The notes under the pieces: model-generated | Seen by the model: the letters and a program-made list of their open reading frames with translations, nothing else | The model's database searches: none | What the model was told of the DNA's origin: nothing | Origin: Pseudoalteromonas nigrifaciens | GTDB lineage: Bacteria > Pseudomonadota > Gammaproteobacteria > Enterobacterales > Alteromonadaceae | NCBI RefSeq assembly: GCF_002221505.1 | Contig: NZ_CP011036.1 | Span: 806,001 to 870,000 of the forward strand | DNA length: 64,000 nt | Reading direction: 5' to 3' | Made by a program: the position numbers and the translations under genes | Part shown: positions 41,885 to 54,121 of the stretch, piece by piece | Layout of the letters: each line of letters begins with the position of its first letter | Position numbering within the stretch: the stretch's first letter is position 1

Positions 41885-42562
41885 ATGTTTAAATATAAAA
41901 AAAATAATACTTTAATATTGAGTTTGCTTATACTCTTGTTTAGCACTGCTTGTGCAACTGCGCCCAACAAAACGCTATTAGCAGAGCCAATAAACGACTC
42001 GCCTGAATATGTGTCTATTACTGCATTAGAGCTGGCGCAATTAAAAGATGCTGCAATGCAATGGCAGCAAGCCCGCTCTGGGATTGAACGACTTTTAAAG
42101 CTAGAAAAAGATATTACCTATTTGGTAAACCATATAGATATTATAAATAGCAAAGCAATTGCGCAGTCTAATCAAAAAAATCACAACCAATATAATCGCC
42201 CCACGCGCAAACAACGCTACTCAAGTAAAGCTCAGCAAGCAATTAAACCAGCTTATAATACAAAGCCAACGGTAAAATTAAACACCCCAAAGCACGTTTT
42301 TGCATTGCAAGTTGCGTCGCTCGATTCCGAAAAAGACTTAGTTAAAGCATGGCAAGAACTCAATGAGCAAGCTGCGCCGTTATTTAGAGATAAAATTCGC
42401 ACCAATGTTGAAACAGCAAATGTTAATAATAAAACCTACTATCGATTAAAGTTAGGCGTGTATCAAAACTTTAAAAATGCCCAAGCCGATTGCAACGTGT
42501 TTAAACTTTATAAACTCGACTGCATAGTAAGTAACTACACAGATAAACCGGTAAAGCTGTAG
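41885..42562 (+). CDS. SPOR-domain lipoprotein, paralogue 1 of 3
   Basis: Predicted lipoprotein: a basic N-terminus and hydrophobic stretch end in the lipobox FSTAC, with Ala after the Cys (no inner-membrane retention Asp). A conserved helical segment follows (SITALELAQLKDAAMQWQQA, about residues 40-75), then a Lys/Gln-rich linker and a C-terminal SPOR-like domain (about 145-215: VFALQVASLDS..., YYRLKLGVYQNFKNAQADC). SPOR domains bind denuded septal peptidoglycan. The same three-part layout recurs in the next two lipoprotein genes. ATG 41885 is chosen because the upstream in-frame extension lacks a signal peptide. Function unknown. Confidence 0.8.
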   Translation: MFKYKKNNTLILSLLILLFSTACATAPNKTLLAEPINDSPEYVSITALELAQLKDAAMQWQQARSGIERLLKLEKDITYLVNHIDIINSKAIAQSNQKNHNQYNRPTRKQRYSSKAQQAIKPAYNTKPTVKLNTPKHVFALQVASLDSEKDLVKAWQELNEQAAPLFRDKIRTNVETANVNNKTYYRLKLGVYQNFKNAQADCNVFKLYKLDCIVSNYTDKPVKL

Positions 42563-42619
42563 TTATACCAACTAGCTTTAAATATAAAGTTGCTTATGCT
42601 TTATTTATCAATAGAATAT

Positions 42620-42642
42620 GCAGCTTACCTAAGCTGCTTTTT
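42620..42642 (+). terminator. Terminator after SPOR paralogue 1
   Basis: GCAGCTTA / TAAGCTGC perfect 8-bp stem with a 2-base loop, followed by TTTTT. Paralogue 2 therefore probably has its own promoter. Confidence 0.8.
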
Positions 42643-42687
42643 ATAAATTAATTATAAAAAAATAAACAAAAAAGGTTAATAATCCTA

Positions 42688-43299
42688 ATGCTTTTAAAAT
42701 GGAACTTTAAGCGCATTACACTAATACTAGGATTGTCATTAGTTATAAGTGCATGCAATACAACTAAGCAAAATGAAAGCGCAGAACCGCTTGTAAAACA
42801 AGGCGCAGTAAATGCGCCGCAAAGTATACTTATTAAAAAAGCAGATTTAGTTTTACTACAAGACTCTGCAAAACAGTGGAAAAATGCTCAAACTAATGTT
42901 GACAAAATAAGCCAGCTAGAACACAAATTAACGCAGCTAACAGCCACTCTTATGCAACAAATAGAGCAGTCAGAACCCCCCTTAAGCGAACCTAAAGAAA
43001 CAATATTTAATTTAAATACTCGGTTAGATAAACCCCCAGCATTATTTTCTATACAAGTCGGTGCTTTTAAAAATGAGCCCGCACTTCATAGCGCATTAGC
43101 GCAATTAAAGTTAAAAGCCCCAAACATAATACATACTGAAACAGTCGTTAATATCGAGCCTGTAGTAGCTAACAAAGTTACTTTGTATCGATTAAAGCTA
43201 GGCTCTTATAAAAGTAAAGCTGCAGCACAAAGCGATTGTAAAACCTTAATACAGCAGCAAGTAGCTTGTTTTGTGGGCAATTACACCCAAAAAATTTAG
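42688..43299 (+). CDS. SPOR-domain lipoprotein, paralogue 2 of 3
   Basis: A signal sequence ends in the lipobox VISAC followed by Asn. The conserved helical segment (ILIKKADLVLLQDSAKQWKN, about residues 47-90) and a C-terminal SPOR-like domain (about 118-200: LFSIQVGAFKNEPALHSAL..., YRLKLGSYKSKAAAQSDC) match paralogues 1 and 3, including a Cys late in the domain. 203 residues with a shorter linker than paralogue 1. Its substrate is probably peptidoglycan (family inference); the cellular role is unknown. Confidence 0.8.
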   Translation: MLLKWNFKRITLILGLSLVISACNTTKQNESAEPLVKQGAVNAPQSILIKKADLVLLQDSAKQWKNAQTNVDKISQLEHKLTQLTATLMQQIEQSEPPLSEPKETIFNLNTRLDKPPALFSIQVGAFKNEPALHSALAQLKLKAPNIIHTETVVNIEPVVANKVTLYRLKLGSYKSKAAAQSDCKTLIQQQVACFVGNYTQKI

Positions 43300-43464
43300 C
43301 GAAGTATGTTTTAGGTATTTAAAGCTGATTAGTTATAACGTTGAAACTCAATTTACCTGTGTGCTAACACATACCTATAAGTCGAGCTAAAATTAATACA
43401 GCAGTTAAAACCCAGCAATGCAGTTTGTAAGTTCAATGCTAATTTAATAGCCAAGTAAAAATTT

Positions 43465-43486
43465 AAAAGGCAAATAATATGACGCG
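43465..43486 (+). pseudogene. Stranded ribosome site and start codon left of the IS30 element
   Basis: AAAAGG (43465-43470), then ATG ACG CG at 43479-43486, abuts the left end of the insertion sequence. The coding sequence of SPOR paralogue 3 resumes within four bases of the other end. The likely reading is that the element split the original 5' end of that gene after its second codon. No clear target duplication confirms this. Confidence 0.45.
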
Positions 43487-44573
43487 GATTCAAATCTGAA
43501 GTGCATAACGTTTAGGCGGCTTTAGCCGCCAAGTGATCCTGCATCAATTTTGCAGGCGTTTCAAATCCAAGTGTCTTCCTCGGACGATTATTAAGTTGCT
43601 CAAGTACTGGTATAACTTGCGCTGGTGTTACCGCCTTAAAATCTGTGCTCTTCGGCCAATACTGACGTAGTAATCCATTCGTGTTTTCATTCAATCCGCG
43701 CTCCCATGAGTGATAAGGGTGAGCAAAATAAACAGGAACACTTAAAGCGTCTGTGATTTGCTCGTGATAAGCGAACTCTTTTCCATTGTCAGCCGTGATG
43801 CTATGAAGCGCTGACCTATATGGCCTTAATAGTTCTATCGTCGCCGTAGTGACGGCTTCCGCTGTTTTTCCTGCCACCTGAGTTGATACAGTGAATTGGG
43901 TGACCCGCTCTACAATGGTAACAAGGGCGCCTCGATGACCTTTACCTATGACGGTATCTATTTCCCAATCTCCGATACGGCCTTTCTCATCAACTATTTG
44001 TGGACGTTCTTCAATGCTAACGCGATTTTTTATTTGCCCTCGGTTTGTTTTACAATGACTGCGCTTGTGATATTTCTTACCGTGTCGGCGCAGATGTAGG
44101 TATAACTCACCACCTGCTTTTTTATCTTCCCAGATATACAGATAAATGCATTCATGGCTGACAGACCGTTCACTTTCTTTGCGTAACCATCCCGTTATTT
44201 GTTCAGGACTCCACTTCTCATTAAGCTTCTGGGTAATTAAAGCTATCATTTCAGGTGTCATCTTAAGCGGTTTTCTTACACTTCTTCGACGAAACAAAGC
44301 CCGCTCATGAGCTTGTTTGTGTCTGTAACCTCGCTTACCTGTATTTCTAGAAAGCTCTCTTGAAATCGTAGATTGCGATAAATTAGTTAGCTCAGCAATA
44401 CTTTGTTGCGTAAAACCGCTTTTCTTTAGAACGGCGATCTGGCATCTTTGCGCATAGGTCAGTTGTTTGTAATGTCTCATTGTAAAATCTCTTGCCGGAG
44501 AAAAAGCAGTTAGCTTATGAGCAACTGACCACTTTATCTAGCCAAAACAAGTTATGCACTTACAATTTGAATC
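43487..44573 (-). mobile_element. IS30-family insertion sequence
   Basis: 1087 bp bounded by 23-bp terminal inverted repeats (43487-43509 and 44551-44573) that match at 20 of 23 positions: GATTCAAAT, three mismatches, then AAGTGCATAAC. One intact transposase fills the element on the minus strand. No obvious target duplication is seen at the ends. It lies between the second and third SPOR lipoprotein genes. Confidence 0.88.
43512..44480 (-). CDS. IS30-family transposase
   Basis: DDE transposase of 322 residues, apparently intact. The N-terminal helix-turn-helix (LTYAQRCQIAVLKKSGFTQQ, SQSTISRELSRN) binds the ends. The catalytic domain shows the acidic residues in GDWEIDTVIGKGH, TADNGKEFA and the WERGLNENTNGLLRQYWPK signature that defines IS30. 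Full length for the family, so the element may be active. Confidence 0.96.
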   Translation of the reverse strand: MRHYKQLTYAQRCQIAVLKKSGFTQQSIAELTNLSQSTISRELSRNTGKRGYRHKQAHERALFRRRSVRKPLKMTPEMIALITQKLNEKWSPEQITGWLRKESERSVSHECIYLYIWEDKKAGGELYLHLRRHGKKYHKRSHCKTNRGQIKNRVSIEERPQIVDEKGRIGDWEIDTVIGKGHRGALVTIVERVTQFTVSTQVAGKTAEAVTTATIELLRPYRSALHSITADNGKEFAYHEQITDALSVPVYFAHPYHSWERGLNENTNGLLRQYWPKSTDFKAVTPAQVIPVLEQLNNRPRKTLGFETPAKLMQDHLAAKAA

Positions 44574-44576
44574 TAG

Positions 44577-45230
44577 GTGATAAAACAACAGCTAATGAGA
44601 TTGTTAAGTATTAGCCTAATTGTACTTTGTGGATGCAGTAGTAAAGTTAAAGAGGCTCAACACAATGTTACTACCACAAATAAGGTTAGTAATGAGGTTA
44701 CTATTTCGGCAGAAGAATTAGCGCAATTAAGAGCATCATCTCAACAATGGCAACAAGCCAAAGCAGGCGTTAGACGTTTGCTTGTTATTGAACACGATTT
44801 AAAGTTACTTATTAGCCAATTAAATGAAGTAGCGCAACGAGAATCGACAACACAAAGTAATCTAAAGCAAGAGGGGAGCAACCTAAATCAAGACACTACA
44901 GCGTCAGAAGAGGCTGTTAATGTGCAAGCCAAAGCAACCGTACAACCTAAAGTAATACAGCCATTGTTTGCCCTGCAGGTCGCATCGGTTACCGATTGGA
45001 TACGATTAACCCAAAGTTATAATGAAGTGAAATCTAAGGCTACAAAACTATTAGCAAGCCCATTTATTGCCAACGTAGAAACCGCAAAGGTTAAAGGGGT
45101 TACTTTTTATCGCTTAAAAATTGGCGCTTATAAACTTCAAAAAAATGCAACGGCAGATTGCGATATACTAAAGCAGCATCAAGTGGGTTGTATTGTTAGT
45201 AATTACACAGAACAACCATTAAAATTATAA
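44577..45230 (+). CDS. SPOR-domain lipoprotein, paralogue 3 of 3 (5' end altered by IS30)
   Basis: The lipobox LCGC is followed by Ser. The conserved helical segment (VTISAEELAQLRASSQQWQQ, about 40-80), a linker and a SPOR-like domain (about 137-215: LFALQVASVTDW..., FYRLKIGAYKLQKNATADC) make it closest to paralogue 1. GTG 44577 lies 4 bases from the IS right end and has no native ribosome site; ATG 44595 (MRLLSISLIVLCGC) still gives a usable signal peptide. Its expression now depends on sequence inside or beyond the element. It is followed closely by the FlgO-family genes. Confidence 0.75.
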   Translation: MIKQQLMRLLSISLIVLCGCSSKVKEAQHNVTTTNKVSNEVTISAEELAQLRASSQQWQQAKAGVRRLLVIEHDLKLLISQLNEVAQRESTTQSNLKQEGSNLNQDTTASEEAVNVQAKATVQPKVIQPLFALQVASVTDWIRLTQSYNEVKSKATKLLASPFIANVETAKVKGVTFYRLKIGAYKLQKNATADCDILKQHQVGCIVSNYTEQPLKL

Positions 45231-45232
45231 AT

Positions 45233-45248
45233 AGGCATAGTAATTGCT
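45233..45248 (+). promoter_or_regulatory. Candidate sigma-54 promoter before the FlgO-family operon
   Basis: AGGCATAGTAATTGCT has GG and GC separated by exactly 10 bases, and TTGCT at -12, as in the sigma-54 consensus TGGCAC-N5-TTGCA. It starts 3 bases after the paralogue 3 stop codon and 49 bases before the first FlgO-family ATG. The same kind of site precedes flgB, flgF, flgP and flgT in this window. Confidence 0.6.
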
Positions 45249-45281
45249 TTGTTATTGTCATGTTTTTTGAGGATGGCAACT

Positions 45282-45875
45282 ATGCGCCTTTTATTACCGT
45301 TATTATTAGTAAACTTAGCAGCATGTAGCTTAACACCACAGCCTGAGCCAAGTGTGAGCACGCCTGCGCGTATAGCAACCATGGCACCTTATACGGTTAA
45401 CGACTACGTAAATAACTTAACTTATCAGCTTAGTCACTTTAAAGGGCCTTTAAGCGGTAACTCTCGCATTGGGGTAAGCAGCTTTTATTACGCAAACGCG
45501 CTAGATTCAAAGCTTCCCAGCGGCCAAGCTGAAGGTTTAAGCCAGCAAATTCAAGAAAGCCTGCTAACACAATTCACTCAATTGGGATATAACACCGTTG
45601 AGTACCGTTTAAGTAATAATATAAATTTAGCATCTAACGCCGACAGCGCGCTTAGCAGAGATATAACTAAACTGCGCGAACGTCAGAATATTGACTTAAT
45701 TATTACCGGCACAGTTACGCGCCAGCAACATGCTTACATTGTTAATGCCCGATTGGTTAATATTAATAATAAACACGTTTTATCAGCTGGCAGTACCGAA
45801 ATCCCGATTAATGTAATGTGGGGCAGTGAAAAAGTTCAGCAACGCGATAATAACTTATATCGCAGCGAATACTAA
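45282..45875 (+). CDS. FlgO-domain lipoprotein, paralogue 1 of 3
   Basis: A predicted outer-membrane lipoprotein (signal ending VNLAAC, then Ser). The FlgO domain covers about residues 30-180: YTVNDYVNNLTYQL, SRIGVSSFYYANALDS, QIQESLLTQFTQLGY, DLIITGTVTRQQHAYIVNARLV. In Vibrio, FlgO is an outer-membrane component needed for motility with FlgP and FlgT. GAGG sits 9 bases before ATG 45282; earlier in-frame starts lack a better site. 197 residues. Which of the three paralogues is the true FlgO is undecided. Confidence 0.82.
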   Translation: MRLLLPLLLVNLAACSLTPQPEPSVSTPARIATMAPYTVNDYVNNLTYQLSHFKGPLSGNSRIGVSSFYYANALDSKLPSGQAEGLSQQIQESLLTQFTQLGYNTVEYRLSNNINLASNADSALSRDITKLRERQNIDLIITGTVTRQQHAYIVNARLVNINNKHVLSAGSTEIPINVMWGSEKVQQRDNNLYRSEY

Positions 45876-45888
45876 TTAGGAGCACAAA

Positions 45889-46581
45889 ATGAAAAAGCTA
45901 TTACTTACATTATGTTTGCCATTGGGCTTTGGGTGCTCACAAATGCTAACAGGCATGAACTCAGACACCACACAAAAAAATCAAAACAACTCAGTACAAT
46001 TGGCTAATGGCGAGCGTGCAGTGGCAGCCCCAATGACCGACAATCAGGTATATCAGTCGGGGTTAGGGCAACATACTAATTATTCAAAATCGAGCACGCC
46101 ATCACGTAAAAACATTAATCATTATGTGCGTGGCATAATGCAAAGCATGGTAGAAAACCTACAATATGTGAACGAAAAAACACCACTGGCCGTTTCAAGT
46201 TTTGTGTTTTTAGATGATGATTACAACGACGCAAGTTTGTTAGGAAATCAAATTGCCGAAAGTTTTATGCATGAACTACACAGCTTTGGCATACCTGTTA
46301 TCGACTTTAAAACTACCGATTATATGCGCGTAACCCCAAGCGGCGACTTTGTATTTAGCCGCGACTACCTTGAGCTAAACCAAGATCAAAACTTTAACTA
46401 TGTTTTAGCCGGTACTTTAGTAAGCCATCAAGGTGGTGTGCTTGTAAATGCACGTATTATTGGCTTAGCTAGTAAAGCCGTAGTAGGAACAGCGCAAGGC
46501 TTTATTCCTCAGTCAGTGGTTGATGCACTTAATAGTAGCTACAGAACCGATGGCATTATGCTTAAACAAGCCAGTAAATGA
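45889..46581 (+). CDS. FlgO-domain lipoprotein, paralogue 2 of 3
   Basis: The lipobox GFGC is followed by Ser. A low-complexity Asn/Gln spacer leads into a FlgO domain (about 85-220) with LGNQIAESFMHELHSFGI, VIDFKTTDYMRV, GDFVFSRDYLEL and NYVLAGTLVSHQGGVLVNAR. A good AGGAG site precedes the ATG, 13 bp after paralogue 1. 230 residues. It is more similar to paralogue 3 than to paralogue 1. Confidence 0.82.
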   Translation: MKKLLLTLCLPLGFGCSQMLTGMNSDTTQKNQNNSVQLANGERAVAAPMTDNQVYQSGLGQHTNYSKSSTPSRKNINHYVRGIMQSMVENLQYVNEKTPLAVSSFVFLDDDYNDASLLGNQIAESFMHELHSFGIPVIDFKTTDYMRVTPSGDFVFSRDYLELNQDQNFNYVLAGTLVSHQGGVLVNARIIGLASKAVVGTAQGFIPQSVVDALNSSYRTDGIMLKQASK

Positions 46582-46592
46582 GCGAGGCAATA

Positions 46593-47252
46593 ATGGGTTA
46601 CAAATTAAATAGCGTTACCGCATTATTTATCCTGCTAGGATTGGCAGGGTGCTCTACTGCGGGTAATAATAAGCAGGTTAAAACTAATAATGCAGACACT
46701 CATTTTGATGTGAATGCTCGTTATGAGCATGCACAAGGGCTAAAAACGCAGAGCGAATACGACGCGTCGCGACAATTTACGCCGTTAAAACATCATAAAA
46801 CCTTGGTTAATTATGTAGAGCAAATGGCGCTTGATTTAGTCGACACTCTAGAGTCTGTTAGTGAGCTTGATGAGAGCATAAATATAGCGGTGACAAGCAT
46901 AGTCGATTTAGATGCCACCCTAAATAACAGCAACCAGCTGGGTAACCAAATATCAGAAACACTCATTCATCAACTACAAAAGTTTGGTTATGGGGTGGTT
47001 GATTTTAAAACGAGTGATGCAATAAACGTAAATCGCCGTGGCGACTTTGTTTTTTCACGAGACATAAAAAACCTTAGCAAAAAGCATATGGCAAGCCATG
47101 TACTCGGTGGTACGTTAATATACCGCGCTAATGGCGTTACAGTGAATACCCGAGTTATAAACGTAAATAATAAACAAGTCGTTGCCAGTAGCCGAAAATT
47201 TATACCAATATACGTTTTAAACAAAGAAGATATCTACTTATCAAGTAATTAA
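46593..47252 (+). CDS. FlgO-domain lipoprotein, paralogue 3 of 3
   Basis: The lipobox GLAGC is followed by Ser, then a spacer and a FlgO domain (about 75-210): LGNQISETLIHQLQKFGY, VVDFKTSDAINV, RGDFVFSRDIKNL, VLGGTLIYRANGVTVNTRV. An ATGA overlap at 46578 would start 5 codons earlier, but GAGG lies 6 bases before ATG 46593, which is preferred. Last gene before tRNA-Arg. The three FlgO-like proteins may form a ring or hetero-oligomer at the outer membrane (inference). Confidence 0.82.
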   Translation: MGYKLNSVTALFILLGLAGCSTAGNNKQVKTNNADTHFDVNARYEHAQGLKTQSEYDASRQFTPLKHHKTLVNYVEQMALDLVDTLESVSELDESINIAVTSIVDLDATLNNSNQLGNQISETLIHQLQKFGYGVVDFKTSDAINVNRRGDFVFSRDIKNLSKKHMASHVLGGTLIYRANGVTVNTRVINVNNKQVVASSRKFIPIYVLNKEDIYLSSN

Positions 47253-47310: not shown

Positions 47311-47385
47311 GGCCTCTTAGTTAAATGGATATAACGGCCCCCTCCTAAGGGGCAGTTGCAAGTTCGATTCTTGCAGGGGCTACCA
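47311..47385 (+). tRNA. tRNA-Arg (anticodon CCT)
   Basis: 75 nt with encoded CCA. Acceptor GGCCTCT / AGGGGCT (first pair G-U), D stem GTTA/TAAC, anticodon stem GCCCC/GGGGC with loop CTCCTAA (anticodon 47344-47346), T stem GCAAG/CTTGC with loop TTCGATT. It closely resembles E. coli tRNA-Arg(CCT) and reads AGG codons. This tRNA is a known integration target in some bacteria, but no integrase or att duplication is seen here. Confidence 0.96.
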
Positions 47386-47800: not shown

Positions 47801-47840
47801 TAAGCCCTAAGCCCTAAGCCCTAAGCCCTAAGCCCTAAGC
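47801..47840. repeat. Heptamer tandem array (TAAGCCC x 5.7)
   Basis: Five perfect TAAGCCC copies plus TAAGC end exactly at the base before the stop codon of the leftward reductase gene. It is a candidate slippage-prone array; copy number likely varies among strains (inference). Confidence 0.9.
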
Positions 47841-50195: not shown

Positions 50196-51104
50196 ATGAA
50201 TATGAACTTAAAAGATTTAGAGTATGTAAAAGCCATAGCGCACTTTAAGCACTTTCGTAAAGCGGCCGATGCGTGCTTTGTAAGCCAGCCTACCTTAAGT
50301 GGCCAAGTAAAAAAACTTGAACAGGAGCTAGGTGTTACTTTATTTGACCGCTCTACTAAGCAGGTAACATTAACCGCTAAAGGCGAGCGTTTATTAACAC
50401 AAATTAATGTTATTTTAGAACAAACACAAATACTTAAAGAGCTTGCTGCTACGTCAAACGAGCCGCTACAGGGTAAGTTAACTATTGGTATTATTCCAAC
50501 CATTGCGCCTTATTTACTGCCGGTATTACTCACTTCAATGAAAGAGGCGTTTATTAATAGTCGCTTTTCGTTTATTGAAATGCAAACCGCTACAATTTTA
50601 GAAGCGCTAGATAACGGTGAGCTCGACTTTGCAATTTTGGCTGATGTACCCGAGCTCAAAAAGTACCATAGCGTTAATTTATACAAAGAAGATTTTTTAG
50701 TGGCTGTATCACACGATAATTCATTAGCTCAGCAAAAAAAAGTAGCGCTGCGCGAATTACAAGGATGCAGCCTATTAATGTTAAGTGATGGCCATTGCTT
50801 TAAAGATCAAGCCCAACAGTTTTGTTTTTCGGCAGGAGTTAATGTGTCGAGCCAGTATCAGGGTAATAGTTTAGAAACATTACTGGCGCTGGTGGCTATG
50901 GATGACGGGGTTACATTTGTGCCTAAATTGGCTTGTACTGAGCGCGTAGGGGTTAATTATTTAGCTATTTATCCTAATCAGCAGCGCAATATAGTATTTG
51001 CATGTAGAAAGCATTACCCGCATTTATCGGGGGTTGAACAATTGGGTGAATGGTTGTCGGCTCACCCTAATTTAAAGGCTAAATTAACTAAATCGTTGAA
51101 TTAA
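50196..51104 (+). CDS. oxyR: Hydrogen-peroxide-inducible regulator OxyR
   Basis: LysR-type regulator. The N-terminal winged helix (HFRKAADACFVSQPTLSGQVK) is typical, and the redox pair is conserved in DGHCFKDQAQQFCF, equivalent to Cys199 and Cys208 of E. coli OxyR. 302 residues. Divergent from the peroxidase it probably regulates. Its end overlaps convergent flgT by 4 bp. Confidence 0.95.
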   Translation: MNMNLKDLEYVKAIAHFKHFRKAADACFVSQPTLSGQVKKLEQELGVTLFDRSTKQVTLTAKGERLLTQINVILEQTQILKELAATSNEPLQGKLTIGIIPTIAPYLLPVLLTSMKEAFINSRFSFIEMQTATILEALDNGELDFAILADVPELKKYHSVNLYKEDFLVAVSHDNSLAQQKKVALRELQGCSLLMLSDGHCFKDQAQQFCFSAGVNVSSQYQGNSLETLLALVAMDDGVTFVPKLACTERVGVNYLAIYPNQQRNIVFACRKHYPHLSGVEQLGEWLSAHPNLKAKLTKSLN

Positions 51105-52294
51105 AGGTTTTGGCTAACTATTTCGACTATATCGTTAATTTGCACGCCCGGAAGTGGTGCATTATTAATGCTTACCGCAATGGCACTTTGTTGATATAAC
51201 TGCTCAACACGAATGCTATTAAGGGTAATTACTTTATGCGGCATAGTATTGCCTAAAGCGTCTGTTAGGTAATTGTGGTGTGCTATGCTAAGTAGTTGAC
51301 CTTTTTTAAGACCATGTGCTTTACCTAAGTTAATCACTATGTTGCCCTGATCAAGGTGCATAATTTTTCCTTGAGTAGGCAAGCAGGCCATAGCTGATTG
51401 TAAATCGTAACTTAGCGTTTGGTTTATATCGTTTATGCTTTGCCCATAGGGTGATTGCCAAAACATACTACTGTTAACATCAACAATAGCGGTTTTTTCA
51501 AATGGCCAAATAGCTTGGTTTTTATAGCTATTTTGCCAAAGCTGTTCATAAGTAGTGCCATCAAAAAGGGTAAACTCTATTTGGTAACTACGTTGATAGC
51601 TTTCGTCTTGCCAAAAGGCATAGTCGCTATTGAGCTTATCGCTAGTTGATAGGTTGGTTATTTGGCTTAATAAAACGTACTGCGCGTTACTACGCGAGGA
51701 AATATCTTCTAGTTGCGCATTAGAGTAGTCGTGTTGCTGCGAAAAATACTTATCGACCTTTATTGCGTTATTGTAATAAGCGATTGGTACAGCGCTCATT
51801 TTTGACTTTTGCAATGCGGTATAAATATTTTTGCTAACCGCTTTATCTATGTCAAATATTTGACCCATGCGGGCTTGTTCACGATGATTAAGCTGGCTTT
51901 GGGTAACGGCCACAAACTTTTTAAAACTACTTTGTGGGCATTGCTCTGTTTGCGCAAAAATATCTAAGCGTAGTGTAATAGCTAGCTGATTATTATGACG
52001 TTCTTCGCTCACAAGTTCTATTTTTTGAATTTCGCCATGGCTGCTTATTTTAAGCTGATCTTGCATTAGCACGCCGTCTACTAAGGTTTGCACCGAGCTT
52101 ACCCGCGCACCAGAGAACACTAACGCTTGTGTAATGGCATCTTTAATTGCTGCAGATTTAGCTGCGCCTACATCGCTACTTTTAACTTGTGCATGGCCGG
52201 TCGATTCATACCACTGCGCTGCAGTAAAAGGCGAAAACGTTAATAAAGCAGTTGCGCTTAATCCTGCAAATACCGATGATAAAAACGAATTCAT
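51101..52294 (-). CDS. flgT: Flagellar H-ring protein FlgT
   Basis: Periplasmic protein forming the H ring around the LP ring in Vibrio-type sodium- or high-torque motors. Cleavable signal peptide (about 1-26, SPFTAA). The N-terminal domain (YESTGHAQVKSSDVGAAKSA, ALVFSGARVSSVQ) fits FlgT_N, a middle domain follows, and the C-terminal beta domain (QGNIVINLGKAHGLKKGQLL) fits FlgT_C. 397 residues. It is divergent from flgP, each gene behind its own sigma-54-type promoter. Confidence 0.9.
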   Translation of the reverse strand: MNSFLSSVFAGLSATALLTFSPFTAAQWYESTGHAQVKSSDVGAAKSAAIKDAITQALVFSGARVSSVQTLVDGVLMQDQLKISSHGEIQKIELVSEERHNNQLAITLRLDIFAQTEQCPQSSFKKFVAVTQSQLNHREQARMGQIFDIDKAVSKNIYTALQKSKMSAVPIAYYNNAIKVDKYFSQQHDYSNAQLEDISSRSNAQYVLLSQITNLSTSDKLNSDYAFWQDESYQRSYQIEFTLFDGTTYEQLWQNSYKNQAIWPFEKTAIVDVNSSMFWQSPYGQSINDINQTLSYDLQSAMACLPTQGKIMHLDQGNIVINLGKAHGLKKGQLLSIAHHNYLTDALGNTMPHKVITLNSIRVEQLYQQSAIAVSINNAPLPGVQINDIVEIVSQNL

Positions 52295-52449: not shown

Positions 52450-52908
52450 ATGCGAGTAATGCCATTACTTATCACGTTAGGATGCATAACCTTAAGCGGT
52501 TGTAGCAATATGTTTGATAAGCACGTTGAATACAAATATGTAGAGCCAAACAATTATCCGGTATTAAAAGCCGTGGGTTATGCACCTATTAGCCTGCAGT
52601 CGGGTGTTAATAAGTCGCAAAAGCAGTTAATGGCTATTAAAGCTTCTAAGCTAGAAGCGTATCGAGAGCTTGCAGAGCAAGTGTATGGGCAACAAATTAC
52701 CGCAGGTACTACAGTTGCAGGTTCAATAGCACAAGACGATTACCTACAAAGCAAAGTGCAGGGCATTATTAAAGGCGCACAAGTTATAAAAGCCTACGCG
52801 GTAGACGACACCTATATAACTGAGCTTGAACTAAATATGAAGCGCGTGCACGACCTGTACATAGGCGAAATTAAACCCCGAGAAGTTAAAAAAGTAACTT
52901 ATTACTAG
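52450..52908 (+). CDS. flgP: Flagellar outer-membrane lipoprotein FlgP
   Basis: LPP20-family lipoprotein required for a stable, functional flagellum in Vibrio and for the basal disk in Campylobacter. The lipobox LSGC is followed by Ser. The LPP20 core is visible: LKAVGYAPIS, KASKLEAYRELAEQVYG, then the IKGAQVIKAYAVDDTYITELEL ending. 152 residues. The stop codon TAG straddles the left junction of a 311-bp TIR element, so the element was inserted at the very end of the gene without changing the protein. Confidence 0.9.
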   Translation: MRVMPLLITLGCITLSGCSNMFDKHVEYKYVEPNNYPVLKAVGYAPISLQSGVNKSQKQLMAIKASKLEAYRELAEQVYGQQITAGTTVAGSIAQDDYLQSKVQGIIKGAQVIKAYAVDDTYITELELNMKRVHDLYIGEIKPREVKKVTYY

Positions 52909-54094: not shown

Positions 54095-54121
54095 TTATCG
54101 GCATATACATAAGATACTTTA
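54095..54121 (-). promoter_or_regulatory. Sigma-28 (FliA) promoter of flgM-flgN
   Basis: On the minus strand TAAA, 15 bases, then GCCGATAA, exactly the FliA consensus TAAA-N15-GCCGATAA, 37 bp upstream of the flgM start. Confidence 0.88.

Follow-up and report, generated by a model that had tools for sequence, protein, structure and literature searches.

The subject of this analysis is a row of six genes on the plus strand of a 64,000-nucleotide stretch of Pseudoalteromonas nigrifaciens DNA (G000:C1:806001-870000, contig NZ_CP011036.1), referred to below as the window; the genome comprises 4.27 Mb in three contigs. Three of the genes encode predicted SPOR-domain lipoproteins and three encode predicted FlgO-domain lipoproteins. 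A first-pass annotation of this DNA had read all six as one scaffold, and its gene calls hold: every open reading frame (ORF) was confirmed at its position and strand, and every product exceeds its Pfam cut-off (21 bits for SPOR, 22.6 bits for FlgO). The SPOR genes are SPOR1 (41885..42562, 36.6 bits), SPOR2 (42688..43299, 48.8 bits) and SPOR3 (44577..45230, 27.0 bits). They are followed by FlgO1 (45282..45875, 118.1 bits), FlgO2 (45889..46581, 148.3 bits) and FlgO3 (46578..47252, alternative start ATG 46593, 146.9 bits), which match FlgO in the Protein Data Bank (PDB) with E-values of 1.1e-12, 3.6e-35 and 2.3e-29, respectively; the solved FlgO is nearest to FlgO2. The FlgO1 ORF opens at TTG 45249, and ATG 45282, judged by eye, is the more likely start. 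Approximately 4-5 kb downstream of the six genes are flgT (51101..52294, minus strand), an H-ring protein gene whose product is above cut-off for Pfam FlgT_N, FlgT_M and FlgT_C, and flgP (52450..52908, plus strand), an H-ring lipoprotein gene whose product matches Pfam LPP20 (26.8 bits, cut-off 25.9) and PDB FlgP (E 2.4e-22 and weaker).

The six genes had been described as lying head to tail. They do share one strand, but an IS30 transposase gene (43512..44480, minus strand; NCBIfam NF033563, 318 bits, cut-off 80) lies between SPOR2 and SPOR3. The first-pass annotation had overlooked it, as it had the downstream flgT and flgP. The genome carries eight full-length copies of this IS30-family element, 99-100% identical, and one split copy (98%). 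Copy comparison places the ends of the copy in the window near 43483 and 44578, where GA flanks it on either side; the right end is derived from two copies only. The element is preceded by a stretch containing AGG and by an ATG (43479..43481, plus strand), and followed by the remainder of SPOR3. Therefore, the element appears to sit directly behind the probable original start of SPOR3 and to have parted the gene from it; the assignment of this ATG draws on the flanks of the IS30 copies and on the N-terminus of SPOR3 relatives. A GTG created at the junction preserves the SPOR3 frame and has no evident ribosome site. Before the insertion, the gene row was probably SPOR1-SPOR2-SPOR3-FlgO1-FlgO2-FlgO3.

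All six proteins have a hydrophobic stretch at the N-terminus and a Cys whose next residue is Ala, Asn or Ser, consistent with the lipoprotein character proposed earlier. However, the strict lipobox pattern [LVI][ASTVI][GAS]C is matched only by SPOR2, FlgO1 and FlgO3. Among 42 aligned SPOR relatives the lipobox Cys is kept in all and Asp occurs at position +2 in none. The structure model of SPOR1 (mean pLDDT 81.6, pTM 0.47), the only one of the three whose fold was compared, matched the SPOR domains of CwlC, DedD, RlpA and DamX in Foldseek. A SPOR profile run against PDB sequences recovered no SPOR entry, although this fold search did recover SPOR domains. The published ligand residues of SPOR domains are a glutamine and a basic patch (PMC6895207). 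In the 42 SPOR lipoproteins, including the three of the window, the glutamine is present in 38 and the arginine in 41. SPOR1 is 28% identical to SPOR2 and 35% to SPOR3, and FlgO2 and FlgO3 are 23-28% identical to FlgO1. In a tree of 89 FlgO proteins, with rows picked by us from the available loci, FlgO1, FlgO2 and FlgO3 fall into three separate starred groups, all of which include proteins of other genera. The term "triplicated", applied to both families by the first-pass annotation, is thus misleading. A recent triplication of the SPOR or FlgO genes is ruled out by these identities and by the FlgO tree, in which branches are long and some deep forks weak.

FlgO is tightly associated with FlgT, and the earlier annotation was right to relate it to flagella. 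In a 60-genome sample that includes the genome studied here, every genome with FlgO also has FlgT (46/46); this count omits G038, with a weak FlgO match in a 668-aa frame, and G057, whose FlgT match is below cut-off. In an overlapping sample of 109 genomes of the order, 58 carry FlgO and 60 carry FlgT. All 58 FlgO genomes have FlgT, which occurs alone in G108 and G123. Within the genus, 34 of 35 genomes have FlgO, with at least three matches each; the exception, G011, is also without FlgT. Four solved PDB entries (9yfg, 9yh6, 9yh7 and 9yds), which we infer from their chain content to be flagellar motors, each contain 58 FlgO chains; all four also include FlgP, and FlgT is present in 9yfg, 9yh6 and 9yh7. 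Published work describes FlgO and FlgP as outer-membrane lipoproteins of the H-ring and FlgT as its periplasmic member (PMC7990780, PMC6375700).

Promoter-like elements divide the row as well. A sigma54-like element with two mismatches to the consensus lies in front of FlgO1 (45233..45248, plus strand). Elements counted at no more than two mismatches occur upstream of FlgO1 in 32/35 same-genus loci, of flgT in 22/24 and of flgP in 19/23, some of the latter at odd distances; the loci are related and the counts are not independent. The mean best mismatch numbers, compared with shuffled sequences, are 1.86 vs 3.80 for FlgO1, 1.17 vs 3.81 for flgT and 2.13 vs 3.90 for flgP. Those of FlgO2 (3.97 vs 3.87), FlgO3 (3.62 vs 3.81), the usher gene discussed below (3.68 vs 3.86) and galU (3.92 vs 3.99) are at background, and that of SPOR1 is slightly below its shuffles (3.36 vs 4.05). 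A single operon of six genes is ruled out, as far as sequence can tell, by the element before FlgO1, the IS30 copy inside the row and the distribution of the genes. No perfect match to the sigma28 consensus was found at the SPOR or FlgO genes of the window; the only one in the window is at 54095-54121 on the minus strand, upstream of flgM. Given the putative promoter of their own, the co-occurrence with FlgT and the joint presence of FlgO, FlgP and FlgT in solved assemblies, we consider with high confidence that FlgO1-FlgO3 are flagellar proteins and that they are most likely H-ring lipoproteins, while the roles of the individual paralogues, and the ring that would be built here, we infer.

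The origin of the SPOR genes is suggested by comparison with 34 same-genus loci, fetched and read from the 35 genomes. FlgO1-FlgO2-FlgO3 are contiguous in 33 of them, the exception being a variant row in G033. The interval between galU (or thyA) and FlgO1 varies. In 21 loci it holds genes for an usher and for SPOR-type lipoproteins, and 20 of these cassettes are complete, with the usher, a PapD-like chaperone and two DUF4402-type pilin genes; in L037 the pilins are unrecognised and the chaperone is fragmentary. Six genomes have SPOR-type genes alone (G001, G006, G010, G015, G024 and G030), and six have neither (G002, G003, G016, G017, G023 and G028), with only 8-565 bp between galU and FlgO1. 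The first genes of L008, L017 and L035 were unlabelled by BLAST and are SPOR2b by profile in loci of the same strains. With the divergent G033 omitted, a SPOR-type gene is present in 21/21 loci with an usher cassette vs 6/12 without one, and FlgO is linked to a SPOR-type gene in 27/33 loci. The genes are therefore not scattered in most relatives, a finding that would have refuted the first-pass reading. The usher-less 3+3 arrangement itself was seen in none of the 34 other same-genus loci. By best BLAST label, a SPOR2-type gene is also present in three usher-less loci of the genus (L014, L018 and L033).

The window falls among the loci with SPOR-type genes alone. No match to this usher family was found in its genome at E 1e-5, and nothing convincing in the way of pilin, chaperone or usher remnants was found in the window. 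An rRNA operon had been considered as the 5-kb filler of this interval in relatives and is ruled out, the filler being the usher cassette. In G033 (L045, L036) a larger island adjoins flgT and carries several FlgO genes, DUF4402-type pilins and two SPOR-tailed ushers, one of which has two SPOR stretches. A tRNA gene (47311-47382), a possible landing site for insertions, is immediately 3' of FlgO3 and has the same position in L024.

In the cassette, genes are ordered pilin, chaperone, usher, and the chaperone has a PapD_N domain. The predicted model of the usher resembles the barrel fold of FimD/PapC, and the protein also has an SdrD_B-like domain and a C-terminal SPOR-like domain. This tail has the ligand glutamine in only 2 of 38 cases, and it matches SPOR1 alone with a probability of only 12. 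No member found in a protein listing was named usher; the names, where given, were of the type "hypothetical", "carboxypeptidase-like regulatory domain" or "SPOR domain-containing". In a protein search the family extended to Desulfobacterota and Alphaproteobacteria, some members having SPOR or copper-amine-oxidase-like domains. Among the open-licence literature matches listed, nothing joined FlgO, FlgP and FlgT with SPOR and no DUF4402 paper appeared; by title, nothing relevant was found on a SPOR domain with an usher pilus or on chaperone-usher systems in Pseudoalteromonas.

A scan of named genomes kept the best 80 of 442 relatives and gave 79 loci, 41 from Pseudoalteromonas (some being strains already among the same-genus loci) and 38 from outside it. 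In 76 of the 79, the usher has a SPOR-type gene no more than 6.5 kb away, the exceptions L126, L127 and L129 being from Desulfobacterota. We conclude with good confidence that the SPOR genes act as anchors for a chaperone-usher cassette in the relatives and are remnants of such anchors here.

Overall, we give a probability of roughly 75% to two adjacent modules at the edge of the polar-flagellum cluster, an H-ring operon of FlgO genes and the remnant SPOR anchors of a chaperone-usher cassette, two gene sets that neighbour each other in several marine bacteria. FlgO1-FlgO2-FlgO3 would be outer-membrane H-ring lipoproteins that have, as flgT and flgP do, a sigma54-like promoter of their own, and they would help seat the flagellum in the outer membrane. 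SPOR1-SPOR3 would be the leftovers of a cassette of SPOR lipoproteins, two DUF4402-type pilins, a PapD-like chaperone and a SPOR-tailed usher. With its lipid in the outer membrane, and a helix and linker across the periplasm, each SPOR lipoprotein would grip glycan lacking stem peptides and thereby anchor usher and pilus to the wall, perhaps at the septum or pole. In this genome the usher, chaperone and pilins are gone, and an IS30 copy separates SPOR3 from its probable start.

Several observations weigh against this interpretation. The usher matches no Pfam or NCBIfam usher model; moreover, hhalign to FimD and EcpC gave nothing, and a PDB profile search gave only SdrD_B-like and chance matches. 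Single 2-mismatch sigma54 matches are not rare in the window (54 found vs 45 expected, not an enrichment), so the promoter argument rests on conservation among related loci. Between the usher-less loci L014, L018 and L033, SPOR1 has a dN/dS of 0.04-0.08, with silent sites near saturation; since its amino-acid changes are so few, SPOR1 may be of use without the usher. Outside Pseudoalteromonas, FlgO is beside the usher in 16/38 loci, and 14 of these 16 have no flgT or flgP within 8 kb (L095 and L113 have them). Four order-sample genomes (G109, G127, G138 and G144) have all their detected FlgO genes no farther than about 4.5 kb from the usher, and their flgT is at least 18 kb away or on a different contig; in three of them the usher match is distant and partial. 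Because of these loci and genomes, FlgO may not be purely flagellar. Finally, SPOR2b genes at usher and FlgO loci of other genera have a sigma54-like element in 7/10 cases (2.10 vs 4.01), which blurs the boundary between the FlgO and SPOR units.

The alternatives are not mutually exclusive with our reading, and their probabilities overlap, as the first two below both fit the two modules. The one that survives best, at somewhat less than even odds, is mere neighbourhood: the interval between thyA/galU and flgT would host passing cassettes, and FlgO and the SPOR/usher genes would be unrelated. This agrees with the same-genus loci, where FlgO1 is preceded by a full cassette, by SPOR genes only or by neither. 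It also agrees with the divergence from a near relative (G021), in which dS is 0.09-0.15 for SPOR1, FlgO1 and FlgO2 and 0.41 for FlgO3 but 1.8 for SPOR3; this contrast points to an exchange of the middle segment, as judged from the sequences. However, FlgO and usher are paired in other genera as well, in different gene orders and at a distance from flgT/flgP. The pairing is found in 41/41 Pseudoalteromonas loci of the named-genome scan. The row FlgO1-FlgO2-FlgO3 precedes the pilin genes in three loci of Paraglaciecola and two of metagenome-assembled genomes (MAGs). In Rheinheimera, Bowmanella, Alteromonas facilis, Aestuariibacter, Lacimicrobium and one MAG, two SPOR-type genes flank a pair of FlgO genes on the opposite strand. 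SPOR and FlgO, side by side outside the genus too, therefore deserved the joint consideration the first-pass annotation gave them. The 1-2-3 order itself recurs in L073, L076, L110, L113, L164, L040 and L160.

The recurrence of this pairing, in varied orders and strands, also speaks for a rather unlikely possibility, a single coupled machine. Here the FlgO lipoproteins would double as the outer-membrane seat of a SPOR-anchored, SPOR-tailed usher, and a shared platform, its FlgO ring serving both, would place flagellum and pilus at one pole; this would be the reason for FlgO genes at the usher locus in several Alteromonadales. An usher was detected at E 1e-40 in 9 of the 109 genomes of the order sample, all nine FlgO-positive (p 0.003, uncorrected for descent). 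The four with all FlgO genes at the usher and flgT elsewhere, together with the elements at SPOR2b genes next to FlgO, favour a shared role, while FlgO is located elsewhere in the other five. In contrast, an obligatory link is disfavoured by usher loci without FlgO and FlgO rows without an usher. FlgO is absent within 6.5 kb in 22/38 usher loci outside the genus, among others in Shewanella, Thalassomonas, Psychromonas, Marinomonas and one Vibrio (whose contig ends early), and 12/34 same-genus FlgO genomes have no usher at the locus. Where FlgO is beside the usher in other genera, 14/41 FlgO genes, mostly first genes, have a sigma54-like element (2.98 vs 3.82), but it is practically missing from the pilin genes (77 DUF4402a genes, mean 3.90 vs 4.04). 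A functional tie between flagellar ring and pilus is nevertheless plausible. Four Alteromonadales (L160-L163) carry a separate FlgO1-FlgO2(-FlgO3) row by housekeeping genes, away from flgT/flgP, in addition to FlgO genes at the usher.

The original proposal, a single scaffold of six lipoproteins between peptidoglycan and outer membrane at the flagellar base with no pilus, is improbable: its families, flagellar connection and pairing stand, and SPOR1 and SPOR2 have stayed intact where there is no usher, SPOR1 also evolving slowly in usher-less loci, but one six-gene system does not agree with the absence of the usher-less row elsewhere in the genus, the FlgO rows without SPOR-type genes in six loci, the separate promoter and the IS30 copy at the SPOR3 start.

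Two further features are noted. A short run of CCCTAAG-type repeats, seen by eye, lies downstream of the locus at 47803-47840. A fourth FlgO-domain lipoprotein gene of this genome lies outside the window (L001, G000:C1:707590-707979), with a Crp-like regulator nearby; the 3.4 kb read there contain neither flagellar nor usher genes.

On the two-module reading, the locus exposes an unrecognised usher family whose tail shares a peptidoglycan-binding fold with the lipoproteins encoded beside it. To our knowledge, no comparable wall anchor is known from other chaperone-usher pili. Three old FlgO paralogues in Pseudoalteromonas and its kin bear on the composition of the H-ring, and a link in the placement of polar flagellum and pilus becomes testable.

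Comparison with known systems shows parallels on both sides of the locus. The FlgO genes resemble the Vibrio H-ring (FlgO, FlgP, FlgT) in their domain, lipoprotein character, flgT/flgP company and restriction to FlgT genomes. However, one FlgO is described for the Vibrio ring (PMC7990780, PMC6375700), as against three old paralogues in a row here, and the operon is set off from flgT/flgP and, in relatives, adjoins a SPOR/usher cassette. The SPOR domains share the fold, as modelled for SPOR1, and the ligand glutamine and arginine of FtsN, DamX, DedD and RlpA. In contrast to these proteins, they would belong to outer-membrane lipoproteins tied to an usher cassette, with an invariant Cys pair and no catalytic domain found. 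The cassette itself parallels the type 1 and P pili (FimD, PapC) in its pilin-chaperone-usher order, PapD_N chaperone and predicted usher barrel. It differs from them in an usher unrecognised by usher models, with an SdrD_B-like domain and SPOR-like tail, in the SPOR lipoproteins alongside and in its DUF4402 pilins; of this cassette, only the SPOR genes remain in the window.

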